A stretch of 64,000 nucleotides of DNA from Alterinioella nitratireducens (GTDB lineage: Bacteria; Pseudomonadota; Alphaproteobacteria; Rhodobacterales; Rhodobacteraceae): NCBI RefSeq assembly GCF_013155465.1, contig NZ_JABJVX010000001.1, forward strand, positions 186,001-250,000, in the 5' to 3' direction. The notes under the pieces were generated by a model that ran no database searches, was not told the DNA's origin, and saw nothing but the letters and a program-made list of their open reading frames with translations. Shown in pieces: positions 2 through 11,630 of this stretch (position 1 is its first letter; every line of letters starts with the position of its first letter). Made by a program: the position numbers and the translations under genes.

Positions 2-1192
2 GGCTATACCGGCCTCAACGCCGCGCTGGCGCTGGCCGAGGCAGGGCGCGACGTGGTGGTGCTGGAGGCCGAACAGCCGGGATGGGGGGCGTCGGGGCGC
101 AATGGCGGGTTCTGCTGTCTCGGCGGGGCCAAGGCGGGACCGGACAAGATCAGAGCGCTGGCCGGCGAGGATGGCGCGCGCGACTACGCCCGTGCCGAAC
201 GCGCGGCGGTGGATCATGTGGCGGGGCTGCTGGAGGCGCAAGGGATCGAGGCAGACACCCATTCGCAAGGCGAGACCTTGCTGGCGCACCGGGCGCGCGA
301 CGTGACCGGGTTGCACGAGGTGGCCGAGCGGATGCGGCATTGGCAGGGGGTGGAGTCGCGTTTCATCCCGAGGGATGCGCTGGCCGAGCATGGCCTTGCC
401 AGCCCCGAGTTCCACGGCGCGCTGACGACGCCGATCGGCTTCGCGCTCAACCCGATGTCATATATGCTTGGTCTGGCCCGGGCGGCGGTGCGCGCGGGCG
501 TGCGGCTCTTCGGGGCCTCCGCCCTCATCGCCCTGACCCATGACGGCGACTATGTCCTGCGCACCGAACGGGGCGAGCTGCGCGCCAGGCAGGTGATCTT
601 CGCCACCAACGGCTACAGCCGCGATGACCTGCCGGGCTGGTTCGCGGGCCGCTACCTGCCGGTGCAATCCAATATCCTTGTCACGCGCCCCCTGAGCGAT
701 GCGGAGCTGTCCGCGCAAGGCTGGACCAGTCCTCAGATGTGCTATGACACACGCCACCTGCTGCATTATTTCCGCCTGATGCCCGACAAGCGGATGCTCT
801 TCGGCCTGCGCGGGGCGATGCGCACGACGCAAGCCAGCCACGCCGCCACCCGCGCCACAGCGCGCGCCGATTTCGAGCGGATGTTCCCCGAATGGCGTCA
901 CGTCGAGACGCCGCATTTCTGGTCCGGCCTGCTTGCCCTCGCGCGCGACCTCATGCCCTTTGCCGGTCCCGTTCCGGGGATGGAGGGGGCCTATGCCGGG
1001 ATGTGCTACCACGGCAACGGGGTGGCGATGGGCAGCTATGCGGGGCGGCTGCGTGCGGCACAGATCACCGGCGACGGCCCTGCGACACCGGCGGCGATGC
1101 TGAGGCCGCTCAAACGCTTTGAACTCGGCCGCTTCCGGCGGCTGGTGCTGCCGGTCGCCTACCGGCTATACGGGCTACAGGATCGAGGATAG
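2..1192 (+). CDS. FAD-dependent oxidoreductase, DAO/PuuB-like (5' end outside window)
   Basis: The gene is cut by the left edge; the reading frame is open from base 2. The visible N-terminus GYTGLNAALALAEAGRDVVV is the later part of a Rossmann FAD-binding fold, followed by an acidic end of beta-2 and the motif GWGASGRNGGF, typical of the D-amino-acid oxidase / gamma-glutamylputrescine oxidase group. The C-terminal YAGMCYHGNGVAMGSYAGR segment is the conserved FAD-contacting end of this family. Such enzymes oxidise a secondary or primary amine with FAD. The stop lies 3 nt before the next gene, so the two are co-transcribed. Substrate is unknown; a polyamine-type amine fits the neighbours (amidotransferase, and the large decarboxylase operon nearby) but is inference. 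Confidence 0.8.
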   Translation, partial: GYTGLNAALALAEAGRDVVVLEAEQPGWGASGRNGGFCCLGGAKAGPDKIRALAGEDGARDYARAERAAVDHVAGLLEAQGIEADTHSQGETLLAHRARDVTGLHEVAERMRHWQGVESRFIPRDALAEHGLASPEFHGALTTPIGFALNPMSYMLGLARAAVRAGVRLFGASALIALTHDGDYVLRTERGELRARQVIFATNGYSRDDLPGWFAGRYLPVQSNILVTRPLSDAELSAQGWTSPQMCYDTRHLLHYFRLMPDKRMLFGLRGAMRTTQASHAATRATARADFERMFPEWRHVETPHFWSGLLALARDLMPFAGPVPGMEGAYAGMCYHGNGVAMGSYAGRLRAAQITGDGPATPAAMLRPLKRFELGRFRRLVLPVAYRLYGLQDRG

Positions 1193-1195
1193 ATC

Positions 1196-1912
1196 ATGGC
1201 AAAAACTCCCATCATCGGCGTTCTGGAAACCGGTCGCCCGCCCGAGGAACTGGCCGATTATGGCGACTACCCCGGAATGGTCGCCGATTGGCTTGGGCGT
1301 GACGGTGTGACCTATCGCAGTTACGCGGTGCTGAAGGGCGTGTTGCCCGACGCGCCGGAGGAGGCGGATCTCTGGGTGATCACGGGATCGAAATTCGGCG
1401 CTTACGAGGACCACGACTGGATCCCGCCGCTGGAGGAGTTCATCCGCGCCGCGCGCGATGCGGGCCGCCCCATGGTGGGCATCTGTTTCGGCCACCAGAT
1501 CATGGCGCAGGCGCTTGGCGGGGTGGTGCGCAAATCCTCGAAAGGGTGGGGGCTCGGCATCCATGATTACGGCCCGCTCAACTGGCCCGAGGCGCTCGGG
1601 GAAGAACCTGCGAAGCTGTCGCTGCAAGCCTACCACCAGGACCAAGTCGAGGTGGCACCTCCGGGGGCCGAGGCCATCGCCTCGACCGCCTTCTGCCCCT
1701 ATGGCGCGCTCTGGTATCCCGGCTTCGCCATCACCGTGCAGGGCCATCCCGAGTTCTCGAAACCCTACGCCTCGGCGCTTCTGGACGCGCGCAAGGGCAG
1801 CGTGCTGGACCCAGCCGAGGTGGAGGACGCGCAAGATACCATGACGCGTGCCGACACCCGTGCCGACCTCGCCCGCCTGATCCGCCGCGTGTTCCTGCCC
1901 GAGGCGGGCTGA
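1196..1912 (+). CDS. Class I glutamine amidotransferase-like protein (GMP synthase-type GATase)
   Basis: 238 residues. The nucleophile elbow GICFGHQIMAQALGG (Cys near residue 99) and the later GHPEF histidine/glutamate motif give the Cys-His-Glu triad of class I GATases. It is a stand-alone GATase domain without a synthetase partner. ATG lies 3 nt after the stop of the flavin oxidoreductase, implying one transcript. In Puu-type polyamine pathways a Cys hydrolase of a related fold removes the gamma-glutamyl group, so a role as a gamma-glutamyl amide hydrolase beside the oxidase is plausible; the closest resemblance, however, is to the GMP-synthase-like GATases, and the substrate is not determined by sequence. 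Confidence 0.8.
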   Translation: MAKTPIIGVLETGRPPEELADYGDYPGMVADWLGRDGVTYRSYAVLKGVLPDAPEEADLWVITGSKFGAYEDHDWIPPLEEFIRAARDAGRPMVGICFGHQIMAQALGGVVRKSSKGWGLGIHDYGPLNWPEALGEEPAKLSLQAYHQDQVEVAPPGAEAIASTAFCPYGALWYPGFAITVQGHPEFSKPYASALLDARKGSVLDPAEVEDAQDTMTRADTRADLARLIRRVFLPEAG

Positions 1913-2002
1913 TCCGATCCGGCAATTTGCCGGGATCGTCCAAATTGCAAGACACCACCGCCTGTGCCATTCCAGGACGCGACCCAACCGAAAGACGATG
2001 AC

Positions 2003-3211
2003 ATGACGCTGAAAGCCAAAGACGCCCCCGATCTGGGATCCTTCACCTGGGACGATCCGTTCCTCTTGGAGGCGCAACTGACCGAGGAAGAACGGATGCT
2101 GCGCGATGCGGCGGCGGAGTTCGCGCAATCCAAGCTGCAACCCCGCGTGATCGACGCCTATGCCAGGGAAACCGTCGCGCCCGAGATCTTCCCCGAGATG
2201 GGGCAGGCGGGCCTGCTTGGCGCGACCCTGCCCGAGGAATATGGCGGGCTTGGCGCGGGATATGTCACCTACGGGCTGATCGCGCGCGAGGTGGAGCGCG
2301 TGGACAGCGGCTATCGCTCGATGATGTCGGTGCAGTCTTCCCTCGTGATCTACCCGATCTATGCCTATGGGTCCGAGGAGCAGCGCCAGAAATACCTGCC
2401 GGGCCTGTGTGACGGCTCGCTGATCGGCTGTTTCGGGCTGACGGAACCCGATGCAGGCTCGGACCCCGGCGGCATGAAGACGCGGGCCGAGAAGACGGAA
2501 GGCGGCTATCGCCTGTCGGGCTCCAAGATGTGGATCTCCAACGCGCCGATTGCCGATGTCTTCGTGGTCTGGGCCAAGTCGGATGCGCATGACGGCAAGA
2601 TCCGGGGCTTCGTCCTGGAGAAGGGCCTGAAGGGCCTTTCCGCGCCCAAGATCGGTGGGAAGCAGAGCCTGCGCGCGAGCGTCACGGGTGAGATCGTGAT
2701 GGACGGGGTTGAGGTCGGGGAAGAGGCGCTGCTGCCCAATGTGGAGGGGCTGAAAGGCCCGTTCGGCTGCCTCAACCGGGCGCGCTACGGCATCGCATGG
2801 GGCGTGATGGGCGCGGCCGAGTTCTGCTGGCATGGCGCGCGGCAATACGGGCTGGACCGCAAGCAGTTCAGGAAACCGCTGGCACAGACGCAGCTTTTCC
2901 AGAAGAAGCTGGCCGACATGCAGACCGAGATCACGTTGGGGTTGCAGGCAGCGTTGCGGGTCGGGCGCCTCATGGATGAGGCGCGGGCCGCGCCCGAGAT
3001 GATCAGCCTGATCAAGCGCAACAATTGCGGCAAGGCACTGGAGATCGCGCGCATGGCCCGCGACATGCATGGCGGCAACGGGATCTCCGAGGAGTTCCAG
3101 GTGATCCGCCACATGATGAACCTTGAGACGGTGAACACCTACGAGGGCACGCATGACGTTCACGCGCTGATCCTGGGTCGGGCGCAGACGGGGTTGCAGG
3201 CGTTTTTTTAG
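2003..3211 (+). CDS. gcdH: Glutaryl-CoA dehydrogenase
   Basis: 402 residues with the ATG at 2003, which matches the family length of about 395; an upstream ATG-free extension to 1964 is possible but adds an unconserved tail. It oxidises and decarboxylates glutaryl-CoA to crotonyl-CoA using FAD, in lysine and tryptophan breakdown. Diagnostic segments are [20 protein letters not shown], the [18 protein letters not shown] core and the C-terminal [19 protein letters not shown] carrying the catalytic glutamate. It follows the amidotransferase by 90 nt. It would drain glutarate formed from cadaverine/5-aminovalerate, which suits the lysine-type decarboxylase encoded 4 kb away on the other strand. 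Paired hairpins follow the stop. Confidence 0.93.
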
Positions 3212-3308: not shown

Positions 3309-4910
3309 TCAGTCGTCTGACCTGATCATTTCCGCCGCCTTCTCCGCGATCATTACCACAGGCGCGTTGGTATTGCCCGAGGTGATCGTCGGCATGATGG
3401 ACGCATCGACCACCCGCAGCCCTTCCATGCCGCGCACTCTTAGGTCCGGGTCCACAACCGCGCGGTCATCGGTGCCCATGCGTGCCGTCCCGACCGGGTG
3501 AAATATGGTCGTCCCGATTTGGCCCGCCGCCTCGACCAGTTCCGCATCCGTGGAAAACATCGCGCCGGGCCGCAGTTCCTCGGGCCGGTAGCGCGCCAGT
3601 GGCTCCTGCCCGACGATCTCGCGCGTCAGCCGGATCGCGCGCGCCGCGACCTGCCGGTCGGCCTCCGTCGAGAGGTAGTTCGGCGCAATCGCGGGGTGGT
3701 CCGAAGTCTCTGGCGAGGCCAGCCGCACGGTGCCGCGACTGGTCGGGCGCAGGTGGCAGACCGACGCCGTGAAGGCCGGGAACGGGTCCAGGTCGCCGCC
3801 GAAAGCCGCGAGGCTGAGCGGCTGGACATGGTATTCCAGGTCGGGCGTCTCGACCTCCGGCCCTGACCGGGCGAAGGCGCCAAGCTGCGACGGCGCCATC
3901 GACATCGGGCCGGAGCGCCTCAGCGCGTATTCCAGCGCGATCCCCGCCTTGCCGCGCCATGTGGAGGAGAGCTGGTTCAGCGTCACCACCCCCTCGACCC
4001 GGTAGGCGCAGCGCAGTTGCAGATGGTCTTGCAGGTTGGCCCCGAGATCGGGGATATCGCGGGCGACCTCTATCCCCATCTCCGCCAGATGCGCGCCGGG
4101 GCCGAGCCCCGAGAGCATCATCAGTTTCGGCGAGTTGATCGCGCCCGCCGACAGGATCACTTCGCGCCGCGCCGACGCCTGCGCGGGCTGGCCGTTTTTG
4201 CGGAACCGCACGCCCGTGGCGCGCGGGCCGTCGAGGATCAGCCGCTCGGCCTCGGCCCCGGTGATCACATTCAGGTTGCGCCGCCCCTTCGCGGGTTTCA
4301 GGAAGGCGCTGGCCAGCGACCAGCGCCAGCCGCGCCGCTGGTTGACCTGGAAATAGCCGACGCCCTCATTGTCGCCGGTGTTGAAATCCGAGGTCTTCGG
4401 AATGCCTGCCGCCTCGGCCGCATCGGCGAAGGCATCGAGGATCTCCCAGGACAGGCGTGGCTCCTCCACCCGCCAGTTCCCACCCGCGCCGTGGATCTCG
4501 CTTGCGCCCTGGAAATGGTCCTGCGACTTGCGGAAGAGGGGCAGCACATCCTCCCACCCCCAGCCCACATTGCCCATCTGCCGCCACAGGTCGTAGTCGC
4601 GCGCCTGTCCGCGCATGTAGATCATGCCGTTGATCGAGGAACAGCCGCCCAGAACCCGGCCACGCGGGTAGAGGATCGACCGCCCGCCAAGCCCCGGCTC
4701 GGCCTCTGTCCGGTACATCCAGTCGGTGCGCGGGTTGCCGATGCAATAGAGGTAGCCCACCGGGATCCTGGTCCAGATGTAATTGTCCTTGCCCCCCGCC
4801 TCCAGCAGCAGGACGCGGGTGGCGGGGTTCTCCGACAGGCGGTTGGCCAGCACGCACCCGGCCGAGCCCGCGCCGACGATGATGTAGTCGAATATGCCAT
4901 GGTCGATCAT
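3309..4910 (-). CDS. GMC-family FAD oxidoreductase (choline/alcohol dehydrogenase type)
   Basis: 533 residues. The N-terminal FAD Rossmann motif is [18 protein letters not shown] signature 1 is seen in [19 protein letters not shown], signature 2 in [16 protein letters not shown], and the C-terminal [12 protein letters not shown] plus [17 protein letters not shown] carries the catalytic His/Asn region. The family oxidises primary alcohols such as choline or long-chain alcohols to aldehydes, passing electrons to quinone or oxygen. It is the last gene of a minus-strand operon, 7 nt after the C45 amidohydrolase, so its substrate is probably an alcohol or amino-alcohol intermediate of that pathway; true choline dehydrogenase (betA) is less likely because no betaine aldehyde dehydrogenase adjoins it. 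Confidence 0.85.
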
Positions 4911-4917
4911 GCGGGCG

Positions 4918-5898
4918 TCACACCGCGTGTTCGGGCGTGATGATCTGCCGCGCGCCGTCCTGGAAATCCTTCAGGCTCAACTCCCACCGCGCCCTTGGCC
5001 AATGGACCTCCAGCGTCTGTTTCCGGGGCCGGTAGACCGCCGTGTAGAGCGTGCCGAAGCCCTGCGTGAAGGCCGTGGAATAGAGCGGGGGGCGCAGGAA
5101 CGCCTTGATGAATTTCTCCTGCGGTTCGACATGCAGGGTCAGGCGTTGCAGCAGGAAGCGCTCGCGTTCCACCGTGGCGGTAAAGCGCGCGTGGCTGGCC
5201 CACTCGACGCGTTCCTGGTGGTTGGTCGCGACCGCCGCGCCGGTGATCAGGGTGGCGCGGTCGGGGGCCATCAGCGCGGTCAGGTAGCGGCGTTGGGCAT
5301 CGACCACGGTGACGTTGTAGCTCATATGCGTGGGCACGCGGCGCAGGACCTCGCCCGCCTCCTTCGCGGTCTCGCAGGTCTGCAACACGTAGCGCAGGAT
5401 CAGCGGCACGCCGAACCCGTCGCCCACGACCCGGCGGCCGCCGAAGGTCAGCGACACGGCAAGCCCCGCATCGTTGATGCCATCGACCAGCCCCCAGAGC
5501 CCGTCACTTGTCCCCATCACGCGCCGCCCCTGCCAGGCTGTGTGCAGGATCAGGCTGTCGAAGGCGTGGGGGGAATAGTCGTAATTGCGCACCAGCATCG
5601 GTTCGGCGCCGGGCCAGATCGCCTGACTGCACCCAGACAGATAGGGTGGCGGGCAGTAGAAAGACAGGAAGCGCGCCGCGTGATCGGTGCCGCCCGCCAG
5701 CTCGCAGAGCCGGTCATAAAGCGGCATCATCTCCGGCATATGCGCCTTGAGGGCCTTGACGCTGTCCCAGTATCCGGGGCGCGCCTCGGCCCCTTCCCGG
5801 ACCCACCAGCGATGGTAGTCGGGCCAGTATTCGTGAAACAACCCGGCCCAGATGGGGCCGGGTTCGCGTTCCGATATGGCGCGCCAGTTGAGTTGCAT
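4918..5898 (-). CDS. C45-family Ntn hydrolase (acyl-CoA:6-APA acyltransferase / N-acyl-amine hydrolase-like)
   Basis: 326 residues from the ATG at 5898; longer starts would run into the upstream ATP-grasp gene. A Cys in YLSGCSQ (about residue 90), followed by LVRNYDYS, matches the autocatalytic cleavage site and oxyanion environment of family C45, whose mature beta subunit begins with that Cys. Characterised relatives make or hydrolyse amide bonds (penicillin acyltransferase, beta-alanyl-dopamine/carcinine hydrolase). It sits 13 nt after the ATP-grasp gene and 7 nt before the GMC gene. The likely reaction is cleavage of an amide made by the neighbouring ligase, by analogy with ligate-oxidise-hydrolyse pathways; this is inference. 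No signal peptide is visible. Confidence 0.72.
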
Positions 5899-5911
5899 GC
5901 CTTGCCGGGGA

Positions 5912-7372
5912 CTACATGATCTTGAAAGCCGGGTCCGCCAGCGCAGGCCCCGCCTCGGCCACCGGCAGCGGGCGGCCATCGACACCCTGCTTGATGCCGT
6001 GAATCCAGCGCTTGGCCCGTTCGGTCAGCTTGAAGCCCTGCGTCATCGACCGCCCGCGCGTCACGACGATGCCGATATCGGCCCCCTCGTAGCGGTAATC
6101 GCCCGGTTGCAGGATGCGCAGGAAAAACGCCTCGTTCTCGCTTTCGACGGCGCGGCGGTGGTAGTCGAACCGGTCGAAACTGATGCTGCCGTCCTCGTTC
6201 ATCTTGTAGATTCCGGTCTCGGGCACCTGAGTGGCGATGTCGACAGTGTCGTCGGTGTGCTTGATCACCATCTGGCTCCAGCTGTCGATCATGTTCGGAT
6301 CGGCCCAACGCTGGTTCAATTCCTCCACGTCGAGGTTGAATTTCTTCTTCGAGAACTCCAGCAGGTGAAACAGGAAAAGCGGCGCATCGGCATGGGCGAA
6401 GGCCGCGTGATTGGTCATCGAGGACGCGCCGGTGATGCGCGGGTTCAATTCGCCAAGCCAGATGTCGTTGGTCTTCTTGTCGATCAGGAAATCCAGCTCG
6501 AAATAGCCGCGATAGCCTTCCTTGCGCAGTTGTTCACCGAATTTGAAGGTCAGCTCGCGCGCCTTCTGACGGACCTTGGGCGGGAAGGCGGTCGAGAAAA
6601 TCTCGTTGCCGCACCAGCCGCCGCGATAGGGGGTCAGCTCCTTGAAGCCGACAAGCTCGGTCATCAGCGGGCCGACGATGGTGCCTTCCTTGGTGGCGCA
6701 GGCCTCGATCGCCGAGCCGCGGCAGTCGATCCGCTTCATGATCTTGATCTCGCCCTCGCCGACGATCTCATGCGCGTGGCGGCGGAAATCGGCCTCGGAC
6801 TTGATGAAGAAGGTGGTGTGGCCGCTGTCGCCGAAGGCCGATTGCAGCACCAGGTCATGACCGATCCCGGCCTTTTCGCAGGTCTTCCTGAGGTCCTCGT
6901 AATCCTTGACCTCGGCCAGCACGTTGGGCACCGAGGGCACGCCCGCCTTGTTACCGATGCGCACGGTCTCGATCTTGTTGTCCATCGACTGGCGCAGCTT
7001 GGCCTTGGGAAACCACACATCCGCGCCCAGTTCCTTTGACAGGCGCTCGGTCTCCTCGTCGAACATCAGGAAGACGAATTTCGGCTTGCCGCCGCGCCGC
7101 TTGATCAGGTCGATGACCTCCTTGTGCTGCAACAGGTAGTTGTTGATATCCTCGATCGACTGGAATTCGGCATGGGGCTGTTCCGAGGGGCAGAACACGT
7201 TGGGATGCTTGCCGCCATAGCAGTCGATATAGCAGATATACTTGAAGTTCTTGCACCACTCATCTAACCCCAACAGGTTGAAATTGGTCGCCGAGATGAA
7301 GTAGATCGGATCCTCGTTGCGGTGAAAGTGGCGCCGGATCTCTGACATGTTGTTCAGGCTGGCTTTGGCCAT
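5912..7372 (-). CDS. ATP-grasp ligase (often labelled biotin carboxylase-like)
   Basis: 486 residues. A good Shine-Dalgarno, GGGAGA, lies 9 nt before the ATG. The ATP-grasp core covers roughly residues 130-340; GYFELDFLID and WLGELNPRITGASSMTNHAA hold the acidic Mg/ATP ligands and catalytic Asn/Arg. There is no biotin-carrier domain, and the sequence does not follow true biotin carboxylase closely. ATP-grasp enzymes activate a carboxylate as acyl phosphate for attack by an amine or thiol. Position 20 nt after a PLP decarboxylase and 13 nt before an amide hydrolase points to an amine as nucleophile. Local base composition is somewhat less GC-rich than its neighbours, with several AAG/TTC-rich stretches. 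Substrates unknown. Confidence 0.75.
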   Translation of the reverse strand: MAKASLNNMSEIRRHFHRNEDPIYFISATNFNLLGLDEWCKNFKYICYIDCYGGKHPNVFCPSEQPHAEFQSIEDINNYLLQHKEVIDLIKRRGGKPKFVFLMFDEETERLSKELGADVWFPKAKLRQSMDNKIETVRIGNKAGVPSVPNVLAEVKDYEDLRKTCEKAGIGHDLVLQSAFGDSGHTTFFIKSEADFRRHAHEIVGEGEIKIMKRIDCRGSAIEACATKEGTIVGPLMTELVGFKELTPYRGGWCGNEIFSTAFPPKVRQKARELTFKFGEQLRKEGYRGYFELDFLIDKKTNDIWLGELNPRITGASSMTNHAAFAHADAPLFLFHLLEFSKKKFNLDVEELNQRWADPNMIDSWSQMVIKHTDDTVDIATQVPETGIYKMNEDGSISFDRFDYHRRAVESENEAFFLRILQPGDYRYEGADIGIVVTRGRSMTQGFKLTERAKRWIHGIKQGVDGRPLPVAEAGPALADPAFKIM

Positions 7373-7392
7373 GATATTTCTCCCTCTTGGTC

Positions 7393-10146
7393 CTATTTGT
7401 GACGCGCGTCGTTCAGCTTCAGACGCGCCGCATTGGTCCTGGCCTGCTGTTTCAGGGCCTTCTGGGTGAACACGCGCAGCCCCAGATCGTCGCGGTAGCC
7501 GTGGATCTCGCTGACATCCAGCGCGCGCATGAAGGACAGGATTTCCTTGCTGACCACCTGTCCCGGCACCAGGATCGGAAAGCCGGGCGGGTAGGGGATG
7601 ATGAACGAGGCCGAAACGACATCATCGCCGCTTTCCATTGCCTCCTTGATCGAGCCGTCCAGTTCCAGGTAATCGCAATTCTTCTCGTCATAACTGAGGA
7701 AGAAGGCCGATCTTATGTCGCCTTCGCTGGTCACCTGGTCGGTGCGGAAGGCATCGTGGAAGCGGCTGAAATCGGGCAGCGGCGGCAGGTCGTGCATGAG
7801 GTTCGAGACGCGCTTTTCAAAGCCGCGTTTCTCCATCATCGACGCATCGTCCAGAAGCTCGTCCAGTTCCTTGGCGATCTCGACCAGCACCTCGATCAGG
7901 TAGGCCACCGATGAGCGCGTGGTGCCGATATTGGTCATGAACAACACGGTATTGCGCGAGGTCTTGTTGATCTGGATGCCGTATTTATCCATCAGGATAT
8001 CGGTCTTGAACGTATCGCCGTCCCAACCGGTCCCGCCGACGGCCAGCGTCACGCGGGTGGCATCGAGGACAAACTCGTCCTTTTCCCAGCAATCCCAGAT
8101 ATCGGTCCAGCCCTGTTCGGGGTCATAATAGCTGGTGACACCGCTTTCGCGGTAGGCTTCGGGGATCATGTCGCCCGCCGCCAGAACCTTGAAGTATTTC
8201 TTCAGCAGCGGATGGGTCGAGATGGCCCGGCGCATCGCCATCGCGGCCTCGACCTGGCGCTGGACGAATTCGAAACCTTCAAGCTCCACTTGCCGTCGGC
8301 CCACGTCGAGACTGGCGATGATCTGGTAATTGGGCGAGGTCGAGGTATGGGTCATGTAGGCCTCGTGGAAACTCGCCTCCACCTCGCCCTTGAAGTCCTG
8401 GTCGTTGACATGGATCATCGAGCCTTGGCGCAGCGAAGTCAGTGTCTTGTGGGTCGATTGCGTCGCATAGACCCGGACCCGTGCCCCCGGCGGCGGCAGA
8501 AGCCGCGTCGAAAGCAGCGCCTCCTCGTCGGCATCCTTCAACTCTTCCTGCTGCGCCGCGTAGGCGGCGGCGTGGTCCTCGGTGCGCAGCCGTTCGCGCA
8601 GGGTATTGGCCGCGTTCATCGCGGTGCGCTGCCGGTAGGTCGGACCGAAGCGCGCGAAGGCGAACCAGGCCTCGTCCCAGAGAAAGACGAGGTCGGGCTT
8701 GATCGCGAGGCATTCCTCCATCATCCGTTCGACATTGTAGACGATGCCGTCGAAGGTGCAGTTGGTCAGGAGCAGCATCCGCACCCGGTCCAGCTTGCCC
8801 GCCGCCTTCAATTGCAACAGCTGATGCTTGATCTCGCGCAGCGGCACCGCGCCATACATCGAGTATTCATTGAGCGGATAGCTGTCGAGATAGACCACCT
8901 GCGCGCCCGCCAGCACCATGCCGTAATGGTGCGACTTGTGGCAATCGCGGTCGACCAGCACGATGTCGCCGGGACGCACCAGCGCCTGCACCACGATCTT
9001 GTTGCAGGTCGAGGTGCCGTTGGTGGCGAAATAGGTCTGTTTCGACCCAAATGCCCGGCTGGCCAGTTCCTGCGCTTCCTTGATGGGGCCGTGCGGCTCC
9101 AGCAGGCTGTCGAGCCCGCCGCTGGTGGCCGAGGTCTCCGCCAGGAAGATGTTGGGGCCATAGAAGGCGCCCATGTCCTGGATCCAGTGGCTGCGGCTGA
9201 TCGACTTGCCGCGGCTGATCGGCATGGCGTGAAACACGCCGGTCGGCTGCTTGGAATATTCGACAAGCGCGGTGAAGAACGGCGTCTTGTTGCGGGCCTG
9301 AACGCCGCGCAGGATGTTCAGGTGCAGTTCCAGGAAATCCTCCTGGTTGTAGAACACCCGCCGGCAGATACCGAGGTCCAGCCCCGCGATATCCTCGACC
9401 GACCGATCGGTGACCAGGTAGGCGTCAAGCTCGGGGCGCACCCTGGCGATGAGGCGGCACAGCTCGGGCCCGTAATCCTCGGGGCTGAGCGCCTCGATCA
9501 TGTTGATCCCGCCCGCCCGGTTCAGGTAGCGGGTCAGGATGGACAGTTCGATCTTGGATTCCATGATCAGACCGGGGCGGACCACGATGGCCTGGATGTT
9601 GTGGTTGAACAGAACCCCGATCAGGGCGTCCTGCAAACTGGGCACGACGACCGTTTCGTAGTGAAACGGGTCTTCCATGCGGCGCATCCGGGCAAAGTTG
9701 CTTTTCAGCCAGCGTTCCTGATGCTCGTTGACATCATCGACGATCATCACCTCGAAATAGGGCTTGGCCAGCGCGCGCGCCTCCAGCGACTGGATCGCCT
9801 CATCCTCGTGATCGTCGGTCTCCGTGCCACGTTCCAGCGGCACATGGCGGCGGCGATAGGCCCCGGTGGCCAGCCCGCGTGCCACGCGCTGGATGGCGTA
9901 GGCGGCGTCCTGGTAGTTCTGATGCTCGAATTGCCGCCGGATGTGGTCGAAGGCCTGCACACCGGGAAAGGCCCAGTAGGCCTCGATCGGGGCGAGCGAG
10001 TCGAAGAGCGTGTTGATCTTCTTGATCTGTGCCTCGGAGCCCTTGGCCTTGCCCGCGCGCGTGAGGGCCACCGAGGCCTCCCGCAGGGCGCTCCACCGAT
10101 CCGATCTCAGTTGGATGGCGGAATAGTAGTCACTCATCGACTGCAT
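7393..10146 (-). CDS. Large Orn/Lys/Arg decarboxylase (fold-type I PLP enzyme)
   Basis: 917 residues from the ATG at 10146; the next in-frame ATG at 10137 is also possible. The core resembles bacterial basic amino acid decarboxylases: a receiver-like wing domain at about 125-260, then the PLP domain with FATNGTSTCNKIVVQALV, LVDRDCHKSHHYG, FLWDEAWFAFARF and the Schiff-base lysine in ATQSTHKTL (about residue 567). Usual family length is about 710-760, so it carries an extra N-terminal helical region of about 120 residues and an insert before the lysine. It should form agmatine, cadaverine or putrescine, but substrate cannot be read from sequence. Downstream genes encode an amide ligase and amide hydrolase, and the upstream gene a nitrilase, so it probably supplies the amine for a dedicated pathway. 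Confidence 0.85.
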   Translation of the reverse strand: MQSMSDYYSAIQLRSDRWSALREASVALTRAGKAKGSEAQIKKINTLFDSLAPIEAYWAFPGVQAFDHIRRQFEHQNYQDAAYAIQRVARGLATGAYRRRHVPLERGTETDDHEDEAIQSLEARALAKPYFEVMIVDDVNEHQERWLKSNFARMRRMEDPFHYETVVVPSLQDALIGVLFNHNIQAIVVRPGLIMESKIELSILTRYLNRAGGINMIEALSPEDYGPELCRLIARVRPELDAYLVTDRSVEDIAGLDLGICRRVFYNQEDFLELHLNILRGVQARNKTPFFTALVEYSKQPTGVFHAMPISRGKSISRSHWIQDMGAFYGPNIFLAETSATSGGLDSLLEPHGPIKEAQELASRAFGSKQTYFATNGTSTCNKIVVQALVRPGDIVLVDRDCHKSHHYGMVLAGAQVVYLDSYPLNEYSMYGAVPLREIKHQLLQLKAAGKLDRVRMLLLTNCTFDGIVYNVERMMEECLAIKPDLVFLWDEAWFAFARFGPTYRQRTAMNAANTLRERLRTEDHAAAYAAQQEELKDADEEALLSTRLLPPPGARVRVYATQSTHKTLTSLRQGSMIHVNDQDFKGEVEASFHEAYMTHTSTSPNYQIIASLDVGRRQVELEGFEFVQRQVEAAMAMRRAISTHPLLKKYFKVLAAGDMIPEAYRESGVTSYYDPEQGWTDIWDCWEKDEFVLDATRVTLAVGGTGWDGDTFKTDILMDKYGIQINKTSRNTVLFMTNIGTTRSSVAYLIEVLVEIAKELDELLDDASMMEKRGFEKRVSNLMHDLPPLPDFSRFHDAFRTDQVTSEGDIRSAFFLSYDEKNCDYLELDGSIKEAMESGDDVVSASFIIPYPPGFPILVPGQVVSKEILSFMRALDVSEIHGYRDDLGLRVFTQKALKQQARTNAARLKLNDARHK

Positions 10147-10214
10147 GTCTTGGCCTCGCTGTTTTGCAACGGACGAGGCTCCCATAGTGACAACTTGCAG
10201 CGTCAGGTCAACAG

Positions 10215-11189
10215 CTAGCCCTGTTTGACGGGATCGAACAGTTCCTGATGGTCGTTGGGATGACTGCGCCGCGCATAGGGCTCAATCGGCTTGGCCGAGG
10301 TGCCGCCCTCATCCAGCAAGATGCCCGCGCGCGAGCCCTGGCGGGGGGTTTCCAGCGGTCCCAACCGGTGCAGGTAGGCGTCGGTTCCGCTGCTGCGGTC
10401 ATAGACCGGGAAATCGGTCGAGCGGTCGCGGAAGCTTTTCAGAACCTGGCCCAGGCCCTTCATGCCGGTTTCGCGCTGACGGCGCACCTGGTTGAGGTCC
10501 AGCTCCAGCGGGAACATGTCCTCCTGGCCTGCGGACTGGTGCAGCACCGTGGCCGACGGGTCGATGACGCAGGAGCGCCCGACGCCGCCCGCGCCCAACC
10601 CGTTCACATCGACCACGTAGCACTGGAACTGCGCCGCCGTGGCGCGCGCGATGGCCAGCTCCGCGTCGCGGTCGGTGGTGCCGGTCAGGACCGGGTGCAG
10701 CAGAACCTCGACGCCCTGGCTGGTCAGTTGCCGCGTGGTTTCGGGGAACCAGATGTCATAGCAGATCGACAGGCCGAACCGGCCCACATCCGTAACATCG
10801 AAGACGCAGAACCCGGTGCCCGCCTCGACGCCCGCCTCGTAGGGGCGGAAAGGAAACATCTTGCGGTAGGTGGCGACGGTCTCGCCCTGCGGGTTCAGCA
10901 CGGTCGAGGTGTTGTAGACAAGCCCTTCGTCGGTGCGCTCGAACATCGAGCCGGGGATGAGCCAGATATTGTGCTTGATCGCGGCCTCGCGGAAGCGGTC
11001 GATGGCATCGTTGTGCAGGGGCAGGGCCGTCCGCGTCAGGGGGCCGAACGGGGCCAGTTCGCTGAACAGCACCATCTGCGTCCAGGGAAAGCGCGCCATG
11101 AGGACGTCGAGGCGATGGATCATGCCGTCGACATTGGGTTGCAATGCATTGACATACATCTGCACACCGGCAACTGCGAATGGCGTCAT
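10215..11189 (-). CDS. Carbon-nitrogen hydrolase (nitrilase superfamily, amidase-like)
   Basis: 324 residues. The nitrilase-superfamily triad is visible as Glu44 (FSELAPF), Lys110 (TYRKMFPF) and Cys143 (SICYDIWFPE). Members hydrolyse amides, N-carbamoyl amines or nitriles. It is first in the minus-strand operon, 68 nt ahead of the decarboxylase. N-carbamoylputrescine amidase is one possibility if the decarboxylase makes agmatine, but the C-terminus from about 270 is unlike that enzyme and no agmatine deiminase is present, so the call stays at superfamily level. The 355-bp region upstream holds the presumed operon promoter. Confidence 0.82.
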   Translation of the reverse strand: MTPFAVAGVQMYVNALQPNVDGMIHRLDVLMARFPWTQMVLFSELAPFGPLTRTALPLHNDAIDRFREAAIKHNIWLIPGSMFERTDEGLVYNTSTVLNPQGETVATYRKMFPFRPYEAGVEAGTGFCVFDVTDVGRFGLSICYDIWFPETTRQLTSQGVEVLLHPVLTGTTDRDAELAIARATAAQFQCYVVDVNGLGAGGVGRSCVIDPSATVLHQSAGQEDMFPLELDLNQVRRQRETGMKGLGQVLKSFRDRSTDFPVYDRSSGTDAYLHRLGPLETPRQGSRAGILLDEGGTSAKPIEPYARRSHPNDHQELFDPVKQG

Positions 11190-11543: not shown

Positions 11544-11630
11544 TGGTGCGGGCGGCGGGACTCGAACCCGCACGGGGGCAACCCCCTTCAGATTTTAAGT
11601 CTGATATGTCTACCATTCCATCACGCCCGC
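11544..11630 (-). tRNA. tRNA-Leu (UAA)
   Basis: 87 nt including encoded CCA. The acceptor stem pairs GCGGGCG at the 5' end (11630) with CGCCCGC, followed by ACCA. The anticodon arm is TCAGA-CTTAAAA-TCTGA, giving anticodon TAA. A long variable arm is present (class II tRNA) and the T arm carries GGGTTCGAGTCCC. It lies 52 nt downstream of metG on the same strand. Confidence 0.97.

Follow-up and report, generated by a model that had tools for sequence, protein, structure and literature searches.

The gamma-glutamyl-putrescine (Puu) pathway caps one amine of its substrate with a glutamine-synthetase-like ligase (PuuA), processes the other end through PuuB and releases an omega-amino acid with the class I amidotransferase PuuD. 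The ectoine-degradation pathway makes and uses 2,4-diaminobutyrate. In Halomonas elongata, the accessible part of the published account places doeX of the ectoine cluster doeABX–doeCD directly before doeC, with nothing between them (PMC3187862). Among nodule systems, the arginine-to-gamma-aminobutyrate (GABA) network of bacteroids termed CATCH-N includes, in the portions available, an AruI-like IlvB1 of Sinorhizobium meliloti that is more active on 5-amino-oxopentanoate (PMC7268258), and the rhizopine mos genes are described, in part of a further report, as NifA-controlled and as travelling with moc genes (PMC10107442). Here we describe a four-gene cassette of nitrilase, long decarboxylase, ATP-grasp ligase and C45 hydrolase that lies in a 64,000-nucleotide (nt) stretch of the Alterinioella nitratireducens genome (contig NZ_JABJVX010000001.1), which we call the window. 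Its logic may be that of Puu, which is known; we did not find the enzyme set, its distribution or its nodule-type promoters described. Literature searches aimed at the cassette, which covered titles and abstract starts of open-licence PubMed Central papers, returned no description of it, and the accessible parts of PMC3538637 and PMC6815383 contain nothing on these genes.

The original prediction had placed five minus-strand genes here, separated by gaps of 68, 20, 13 and 7 nt, and we recovered exactly this arrangement:

10215–11189, minus strand: nitrilase gene (nit), first gene of the cassette, 324 residues; PF00795 at 106 bits, above cut-off.
7393–10146, minus strand: long Orn/Lys/Arg-type decarboxylase gene (odc), 917 residues, or 930 if an upstream ATG at 10185 is taken; PF01276 at 258 bits, above cut-off.
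5912–7372, minus strand: ATP-grasp gene (atpg), 486 residues; NCBIfam PRK06524 'biotin carboxylase' at 760 bits (cut-off 684), no Pfam match.
4918–5898, minus strand: C45 N-terminal nucleophile (Ntn) hydrolase gene (c45), 326 residues; PF03417 at 111 bits, above cut-off, and NCBIfam C45_proenzyme at 183 bits (cut-off 85).
3309–4910, minus strand: GMC oxidoreductase gene (gmc), 533 residues; GMC_oxred_N/C at 170/137 bits, above cut-off; judged to lie outside the conserved cassette.

Pfam and NCBIfam agree with the families first assigned to the nitrilase, decarboxylase, C45 and GMC proteins, and PRK06524 together with the predicted fold supports the ATP-grasp assignment.

The conserved unit consists of four genes. 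We retrieved loci by ligase similarity and kept the best 80 of 232 contigs, whose titles name Rhodobacterales taxa, four of them only Alphaproteobacteria. The decarboxylase is present in all 80, C45 in 79 and the nitrilase in 75, and the order nit-odc-atpg-c45 is maintained in these contigs. The lone contig without C45 (L047; L-numbers denote the homologous loci compared) stops at its edge. Four of those without a nitrilase (L027, L040, L066 and L073) are cut inside the decarboxylase gene, and only L059 lacks it despite 7.2 kb of upstream sequence. A second set of 61 further loci, which includes near-duplicates and one Sinorhizobium medicae fragment (L208), contains the ligase in 60, C45 in 60 (that of L206 is cut), the decarboxylase in 53 and the nitrilase in 46. 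Distances between sequences are correlated among the four genes (Pearson 0.82–0.95 over 24–36 loci, L118 left out), with the relatedness of the loci still contained in these values.

The expectation that all five families would recur together thus held for four of them and failed for the GMC oxidoreductase. A GMC match occurs in one of the 80 contigs (L058; 42% identity, opposite strand, ~2.6 kb past the C45 gene) and in none of the 61 further loci, so we rejected it as a fifth cassette member and regard the window gene as probably recruited locally. A five-gene pathway with the GMC enzyme as oxidant has the gap of only 7 nt between c45 and gmc in its favor, yet given the near-absence of the gene elsewhere, and its position away from the cassette in L058, we consider it very improbable. 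As a general design the five-gene set is largely refuted; local recruitment in the window species is possible.

We examined co-occurrence reciprocally in a single set of 398 genomes sampled evenly across the phylum, to which all our genome samples were confined. The ligase scores at least 510 bits in 11 genomes, in 8 of them above the family cut-off, and the next match falls to 51 bits. The identical 11 genomes carry C45 with scores of 446 bits or higher and the long decarboxylase with 1242 bits or higher. Together with the 79 of 80 contigs above, this gives a positive answer to the originally proposed search for ATP-grasp and C45 genes as neighbors in other genomes. The 11 genomes fall in six taxonomic families (handles f1, f21, f40, f47, f51 and f55) and reflect shared ancestry, not 11 independent events. 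The distribution of the ligase is patchy: it is found in 40 of 151 genomes of f51, 6 of 247 of f10, 5 of 145 and 3 of 119 in two orders, and 32 of 72,556 plasmid records, 24 of these at 80% coverage or more. Below 446 bits, two of the 11 genomes hold second C45 copies (386 and 377 bits). Unlinked C45 paralogues with 43–47% identity also occur in cassette-bearing genomes at L213 ~8033–8950 and L214 ~7992–8948, with no ligase match within the 17 kb fetched.

The ATP-grasp protein is a predicted carboxylate–amine ligase. Its AlphaFold model (predicted local distance difference test (pLDDT) score 88) adopts a biotin-carboxylase fold (Foldseek E 3.8e-19; Z up to 23.8, root-mean-square deviation (rmsd) 3.8, 391 residues aligned) that is shared by biotin carboxylases, PurK and PylC, an ATP-grasp enzyme of known reaction. 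PylC superposes with Z 22.2 and rmsd 4.7 over 322 residues at 9% identity. In the window protein the motif reads E308-L-N310-P-R312-I-T-G-A, against E-M-N-T-R-I-Q in the aligned carboxylase; E-x-N-x-R is thus kept, and T314-G315-A316 replaces the carboxylase residues that follow. G315 is invariant in 27 aligned ligases. We assume that carboxylases carry a Glu after I-Q and that this Gln and Glu have catalytic roles. The motif led us to reject the annotation 'biotin carboxylase', which appears unsuited to this enzyme. The same evidence bears on a plain unit of basic-amino-acid decarboxylation followed by deamidation or hydrolysis, in which the ATP-grasp protein would carboxylate a guanidine or an amine instead of acting as a ligase. 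Biotin carboxylases are indeed its closest matches in sequence and fold, and the nitrilase distantly matches the N-carbamoylputrescine amidase profile (68 bits, cut-off 410); however, I-T-G-A stands where carboxylases have I-Q, and the cassette contains no biotin carrier or carboxyltransferase gene, which makes such a unit improbable. In Rhizobium leguminosarum CB782, a second, divergent ligase copy (L210:16613–17581; 44% identity) directly follows the first.

The C45 protein is predicted to be an autoproteolytic Ntn hydrolase or acyltransferase. Cys90, the predicted nucleophile, follows Gly89 and is invariant in 29 of 29 aligned proteins. The closest solved fold to its model (pLDDT 92) is the isopenicillin N acyltransferase precursor (2x1c; Z 29.6, rmsd 3.2, 302 residues aligned), at 12% identity; PDB sequence searches for C45 relatives gave weak hits only. 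The nitrilase triad named in the original prediction, E44, K110 and C143, is invariant in 20 of 20 aligned sequences. No nitrilase gene was found adjoining the rhizobial and some distant copies of the cassette.

The decarboxylase belongs to the fold-type I pyridoxal phosphate (PLP) enzymes of the Orn/Lys/Arg superfamily, in an Rv2531c-like clade. It is as long as first noted, although not unique in this respect: a mycobacterial decarboxylase of solved structure (9n0n/9n0o; E ~4e-250) matches it almost from end to end. Residues K567 and D491, to which we ascribe catalytic roles (K567 presumably being the PLP lysine), are invariant in 25 of 25 aligned sequences. The VEKTG/VEKSG motif of CadA, AdiA and LdcF reads INKTS in both the window enzyme and Rv2531c. 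N727 is likewise invariant (25 of 25), and the acidic equivalent of LdcI Glu526, which we take to lie in the substrate pocket and to contribute to substrate binding, is not retained. Rv2531c also has Asn at this position, so the residue marks the clade and not the cassette. In the accessible parts of the papers in which we sought this site (PMC7866039, PMC7806604 and PMC4832331), one passage describes an acidic patch along the active-site channel and none states the residue number. The activity of Rv2531c is described as not known in the portion available of PMC12910592. Rv2531c-type enzymes differ from that of the cassette in context: six further genomes of the 398 carry a more distant long decarboxylase (1131–1147 bits) in the absence of a strong ligase or C45 match.

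We tentatively favor, at somewhat under an even chance, a reading of the cassette as a route that acyl-caps diamino acids, processes them and uncaps them to yield an omega-amino acid such as GABA. We infer which substrates and which cap are used, in what order the steps run and in which direction C45 works, as follows. Candidate substrates are ornithine, including ornithine formed from arginine, lysine and 2,4-diaminobutyrate, or the amines of these diamino acids. At the expense of ATP, the ATP-grasp ligase would attach a small carboxylic acid to the distal amine, a cap that would prevent cyclization once the opposite end is an aldehyde. The long PLP decarboxylase would strip CO2 from the amino-acid end, which would become a carboxylate through a class III aminotransferase plus an aldehyde dehydrogenase, with genes nearby or elsewhere. 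C45 would then release the cap and free the omega-amino acid, with the nitrilase as an accessory amide hydrolase.

The neighborhoods of the cassette outside rhizobia carry much of the argument for this route. We clustered neighbors in 91 loci, mostly from Rhodobacterales (the 80 contigs, 10 others and the window), and found a class III aminotransferase cluster in 42 (a loose count at 35% identity that may merge PRK07483-type and gabT-type enzymes), a TAXI receptor in 41, a fused TRAP permease in 41, a universal stress protein (Usp) in 28 and a PuuR-like regulator in 21. A gabT gene lies directly upstream of nit in L197 and ~2.7 kb upstream in Roseobacter ponti. In the window genome, a separate contig (C41) encodes TAXI, TRAP permease, Usp and a PRK07483-type aminotransferase (761 bits, cut-off 485) consecutively and in the same direction. 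The class III aminotransferase is therefore the recurrent candidate for converting amine to aldehyde, and the original assignment of this step to the GMC enzyme is not supported.

Other lineages embed the cassette in gene clusters of different kinds. In family f51, 24 of the 25 loci fetched show it among ectoine-degradation genes in the order nit-atpg-c45-odc, flanked by a doeX-like regulator and a doeC-like dehydrogenase; two of the 24 have several kb of additional sequence there. Profiles name DoeA, DoeB and EutB in L124 alone (670, 491 and 466 bits, all above cut-offs), the other f51 loci being named by similarity to L124 and doeC and doeD by gene order. Shinella-type plasmids (four loci, two of them the same plasmid judging by length) lack the long decarboxylase and have atpg, c45 and, some kb off on the other strand, nit; they also carry an amino-acid permease, agmatinase, AruI-type keto-acid decarboxylase, aldehyde dehydrogenase, D-amino-acid dehydrogenase, racemase and RidA. 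One annotated alanine racemase, L113:15782–17569, consists of a racemase domain fused to an arginase-family domain. Two Cupriavidus loci contain a sodium–dicarboxylate symporter in one case and an ATP-binding cassette (ABC) importer in the other, with MocR-type regulators in both; such regulators control GABA and ectoine use, as far as the accessible part of PMC5320631 describes. Four-gene sets without these neighbors occur in L120, L189, L198 and the window.

Across these contexts the ligase and C45 form the constant pair, and the route from the amino-acid end to the aldehyde varies between two alternatives, PLP decarboxylase plus aminotransferase, or racemase plus dehydrogenase plus keto-acid decarboxylase. 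This pattern argues that the opposite end of a diamino compound is where the ligase and C45 work, as cap and release. Capping also fits arginine or ornithine in Shinella and rhizobia, diaminobutyrate in f51, the PuuR-like and gabT neighbors and the MocR-type regulators. The original prediction of Puu logic carried out by non-homologous enzymes is accordingly retained in outline, with PuuR-like regulators, class III aminotransferase or gabT, aldehyde dehydrogenase and arginine-to-GABA genes nearby, and without its GMC step. Membership in Puu in the strict sense we reject because two defining enzymes differ: the cassette ligase is an ATP-grasp protein (PRK06524) and not PuuA-like, and the candidate for release is of the PF03417/C45 type instead of a PuuD-type amidotransferase. 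An aminotransferase stands near the cassette in place of PuuB. The class I amidotransferase gene of the window (1196–1912) lies on the opposite strand and is not conserved beside the cassette. The CATCH-N network shares the arginine, ornithine and GABA chemistry and differs in that no ATP-grasp or C45 step appears in the available portions of PMC7268258.

Several observations weigh against the cap-and-release route. PylC ranks only 47th among closely tied structural hits, most of which are carboxylases, and three of the 398 genomes hold a distant C45 (302, 232 and 176 bits) without the ligase. Two amide hydrolases, C45 and the nitrilase, exceed the need of a single uncapping step. Of the 91 loci, 27, including the window, lack any of seven counted neighbor families, although some contigs are short. 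The single PuuR-like protein scanned reaches 153 bits, below the PuuR cut-off of 211, and the best PuuR score in the window genome is 39 bits, a weak absence given that controls including Escherichia coli also fell below the cut-off. The H. elongata doe cluster, in the accessible part of its description, lacks all four genes (PMC3187862); since this organism degrades ectoine with no cassette between doeX and doeC, the cassette is not required for ectoine degradation. Mycobacterium tuberculosis that had lost a distant decarboxylase homologue still grew unimpaired on arginine, according to the part available of PMC4569260. Finally, the rhizobial copies look like nodule operons, which would suit biosynthesis too.

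Nine plasmid loci from R. leguminosarum and S. meliloti, which are mutually related and not independent cases, carry the decarboxylase, ligase and C45 genes without the nitrilase. The fetched stretches of L117, L206 and L210 include nif or fix genes. Downstream of the trio, an ABC importer is found in L116–L119, L207, L210 and L211, followed, as far as each stretch reaches, by an amidase (not annotated in L210), an RpiR regulator and a beta-lactamase-family hydrolase. In L206 these last three genes lie ~9 kb before the cassette, and L209 was left out of the annotation. Decay is evident in some copies: the decarboxylases of L117 and L118 are short, L206 has a frame break and a C45 gene that ends at an insertion sequence, and S. 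medicae has fragments of the ligase.

All eight loci scanned have a sigma-54-type site ahead of the decarboxylase gene. In six of the nine rhizobial loci, it is preceded at 102–106 bp by TGT-N10-ACA, a NifA-type upstream activating sequence (UAS), with L116 and L209 near-identical. We take these motifs, and their meaning, to be those of NifA/sigma-54 promoters. L117, L119 and L210 have the sigma-54-type site alone, without a pair of the right spacing before the decarboxylase gene. A pair of the same kind, at 101 bp, belongs to the nifH gene of L117. No pair was found in 2.54 Mb of other loci plus the window, a control that left out L112–L115, and shuffles of all nine rhizobial loci (n = 40) gave a mean of 0.05 and a maximum of 1 pair per shuffle. 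Whole-locus counts of the sigma-54 motif alone were matched in 66, 17, 8 and 3 of 100 shuffles (L117, L116, L118 and L119, respectively) and so carry little weight; what counts is where the site lies and that it is paired. In L117, 202 nt surrounding the start of the decarboxylase gene match the region upstream of nifH on that plasmid at 88% identity, and L116 has two short NifH-start matches (13/13 and 10/12 residues) ahead of the decarboxylase. In L206, L207 and L211 a UAS/sigma-54 pair also precedes a divergent Glu/Leu/Phe/Val dehydrogenase gene on the minus strand, hinting at a larger nodule regulon.

These promoters lend weight to a serious rival of the cap-and-release route, in which the decarboxylase–ligase–C45 trio synthesizes a small amide that would act like a rhizopine in nodules. 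The decarboxylase would make an amine, the ATP-grasp enzyme would add an acid, C45 would serve as acyltransferase or amide processor, and kin would import and cleave the product. The paired motifs in six of nine loci, the nifH-derived start of L117, the NifH-start matches of L116 and the downstream importer, amidase, RpiR regulator and hydrolase all speak for it. The rhizopine mos/moc system offers a possible parallel, judged by sequence, in NifA control and in the importer and hydrolases adjoining the rhizobial copies; its enzymes are unrelated, and its product is an inosamine instead of a presumed amide. However, bacteroids also catabolize arginine towards GABA and succinate, as the available portions of PMC7268258 describe, and a nodule promoter therefore does not prove synthesis. 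The three loci without a correctly spaced pair, the decay of some copies and the placement of the cassette elsewhere in catabolic clusters with regulators and importers also count against it. We regard amide synthesis as possible, if on the whole unlikely. In a fuller version, rhizobia would have put the amide-making trio behind nifH-type promoters, so that bacteroids produce an amide-class rhizopine eaten by free-living kin, with the marine cassette as a free-living relative; this version we hold to be rather doubtful.

The gene set recurs in marine roseobacters, ectoine degraders, Cupriavidus and legume symbionts, and the name of its central enzyme is unsupported by the motif. If the cap-and-release route is correct, it would be a second, independently assembled answer to amino-aldehyde cyclization and an unseen path for arginine and ornithine carbon and nitrogen. 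A nodule amide would instead be a candidate new symbiotic currency that can be tested directly. In either case, several families would gain a function together and database annotations would be corrected.

Further features of these loci lie beside the cassette. Next to the rhizobial copies in L118, L119 and L207 is a cluster for a ribosomally synthesized and post-translationally modified peptide (radical S-adenosylmethionine epimerase and methyltransferase), with a Nif11-type leader annotated in L118 and L119. In the window, positions 53–3211 on the plus strand, convergent with the cassette, encode a DAO-family oxidase with a weak match to pipecolate oxidase, the class I glutamine amidotransferase and a glutaryl-CoA-dehydrogenase-like acyl-CoA dehydrogenase, a set reminiscent of lysine catabolism. 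We dropped a lysine/glutarate link through the last of these genes, which is not conserved next to the cassette elsewhere. Just upstream of the window cassette, a tRNA-Leu(taa) gene occupies 11544–11630 on the minus strand.

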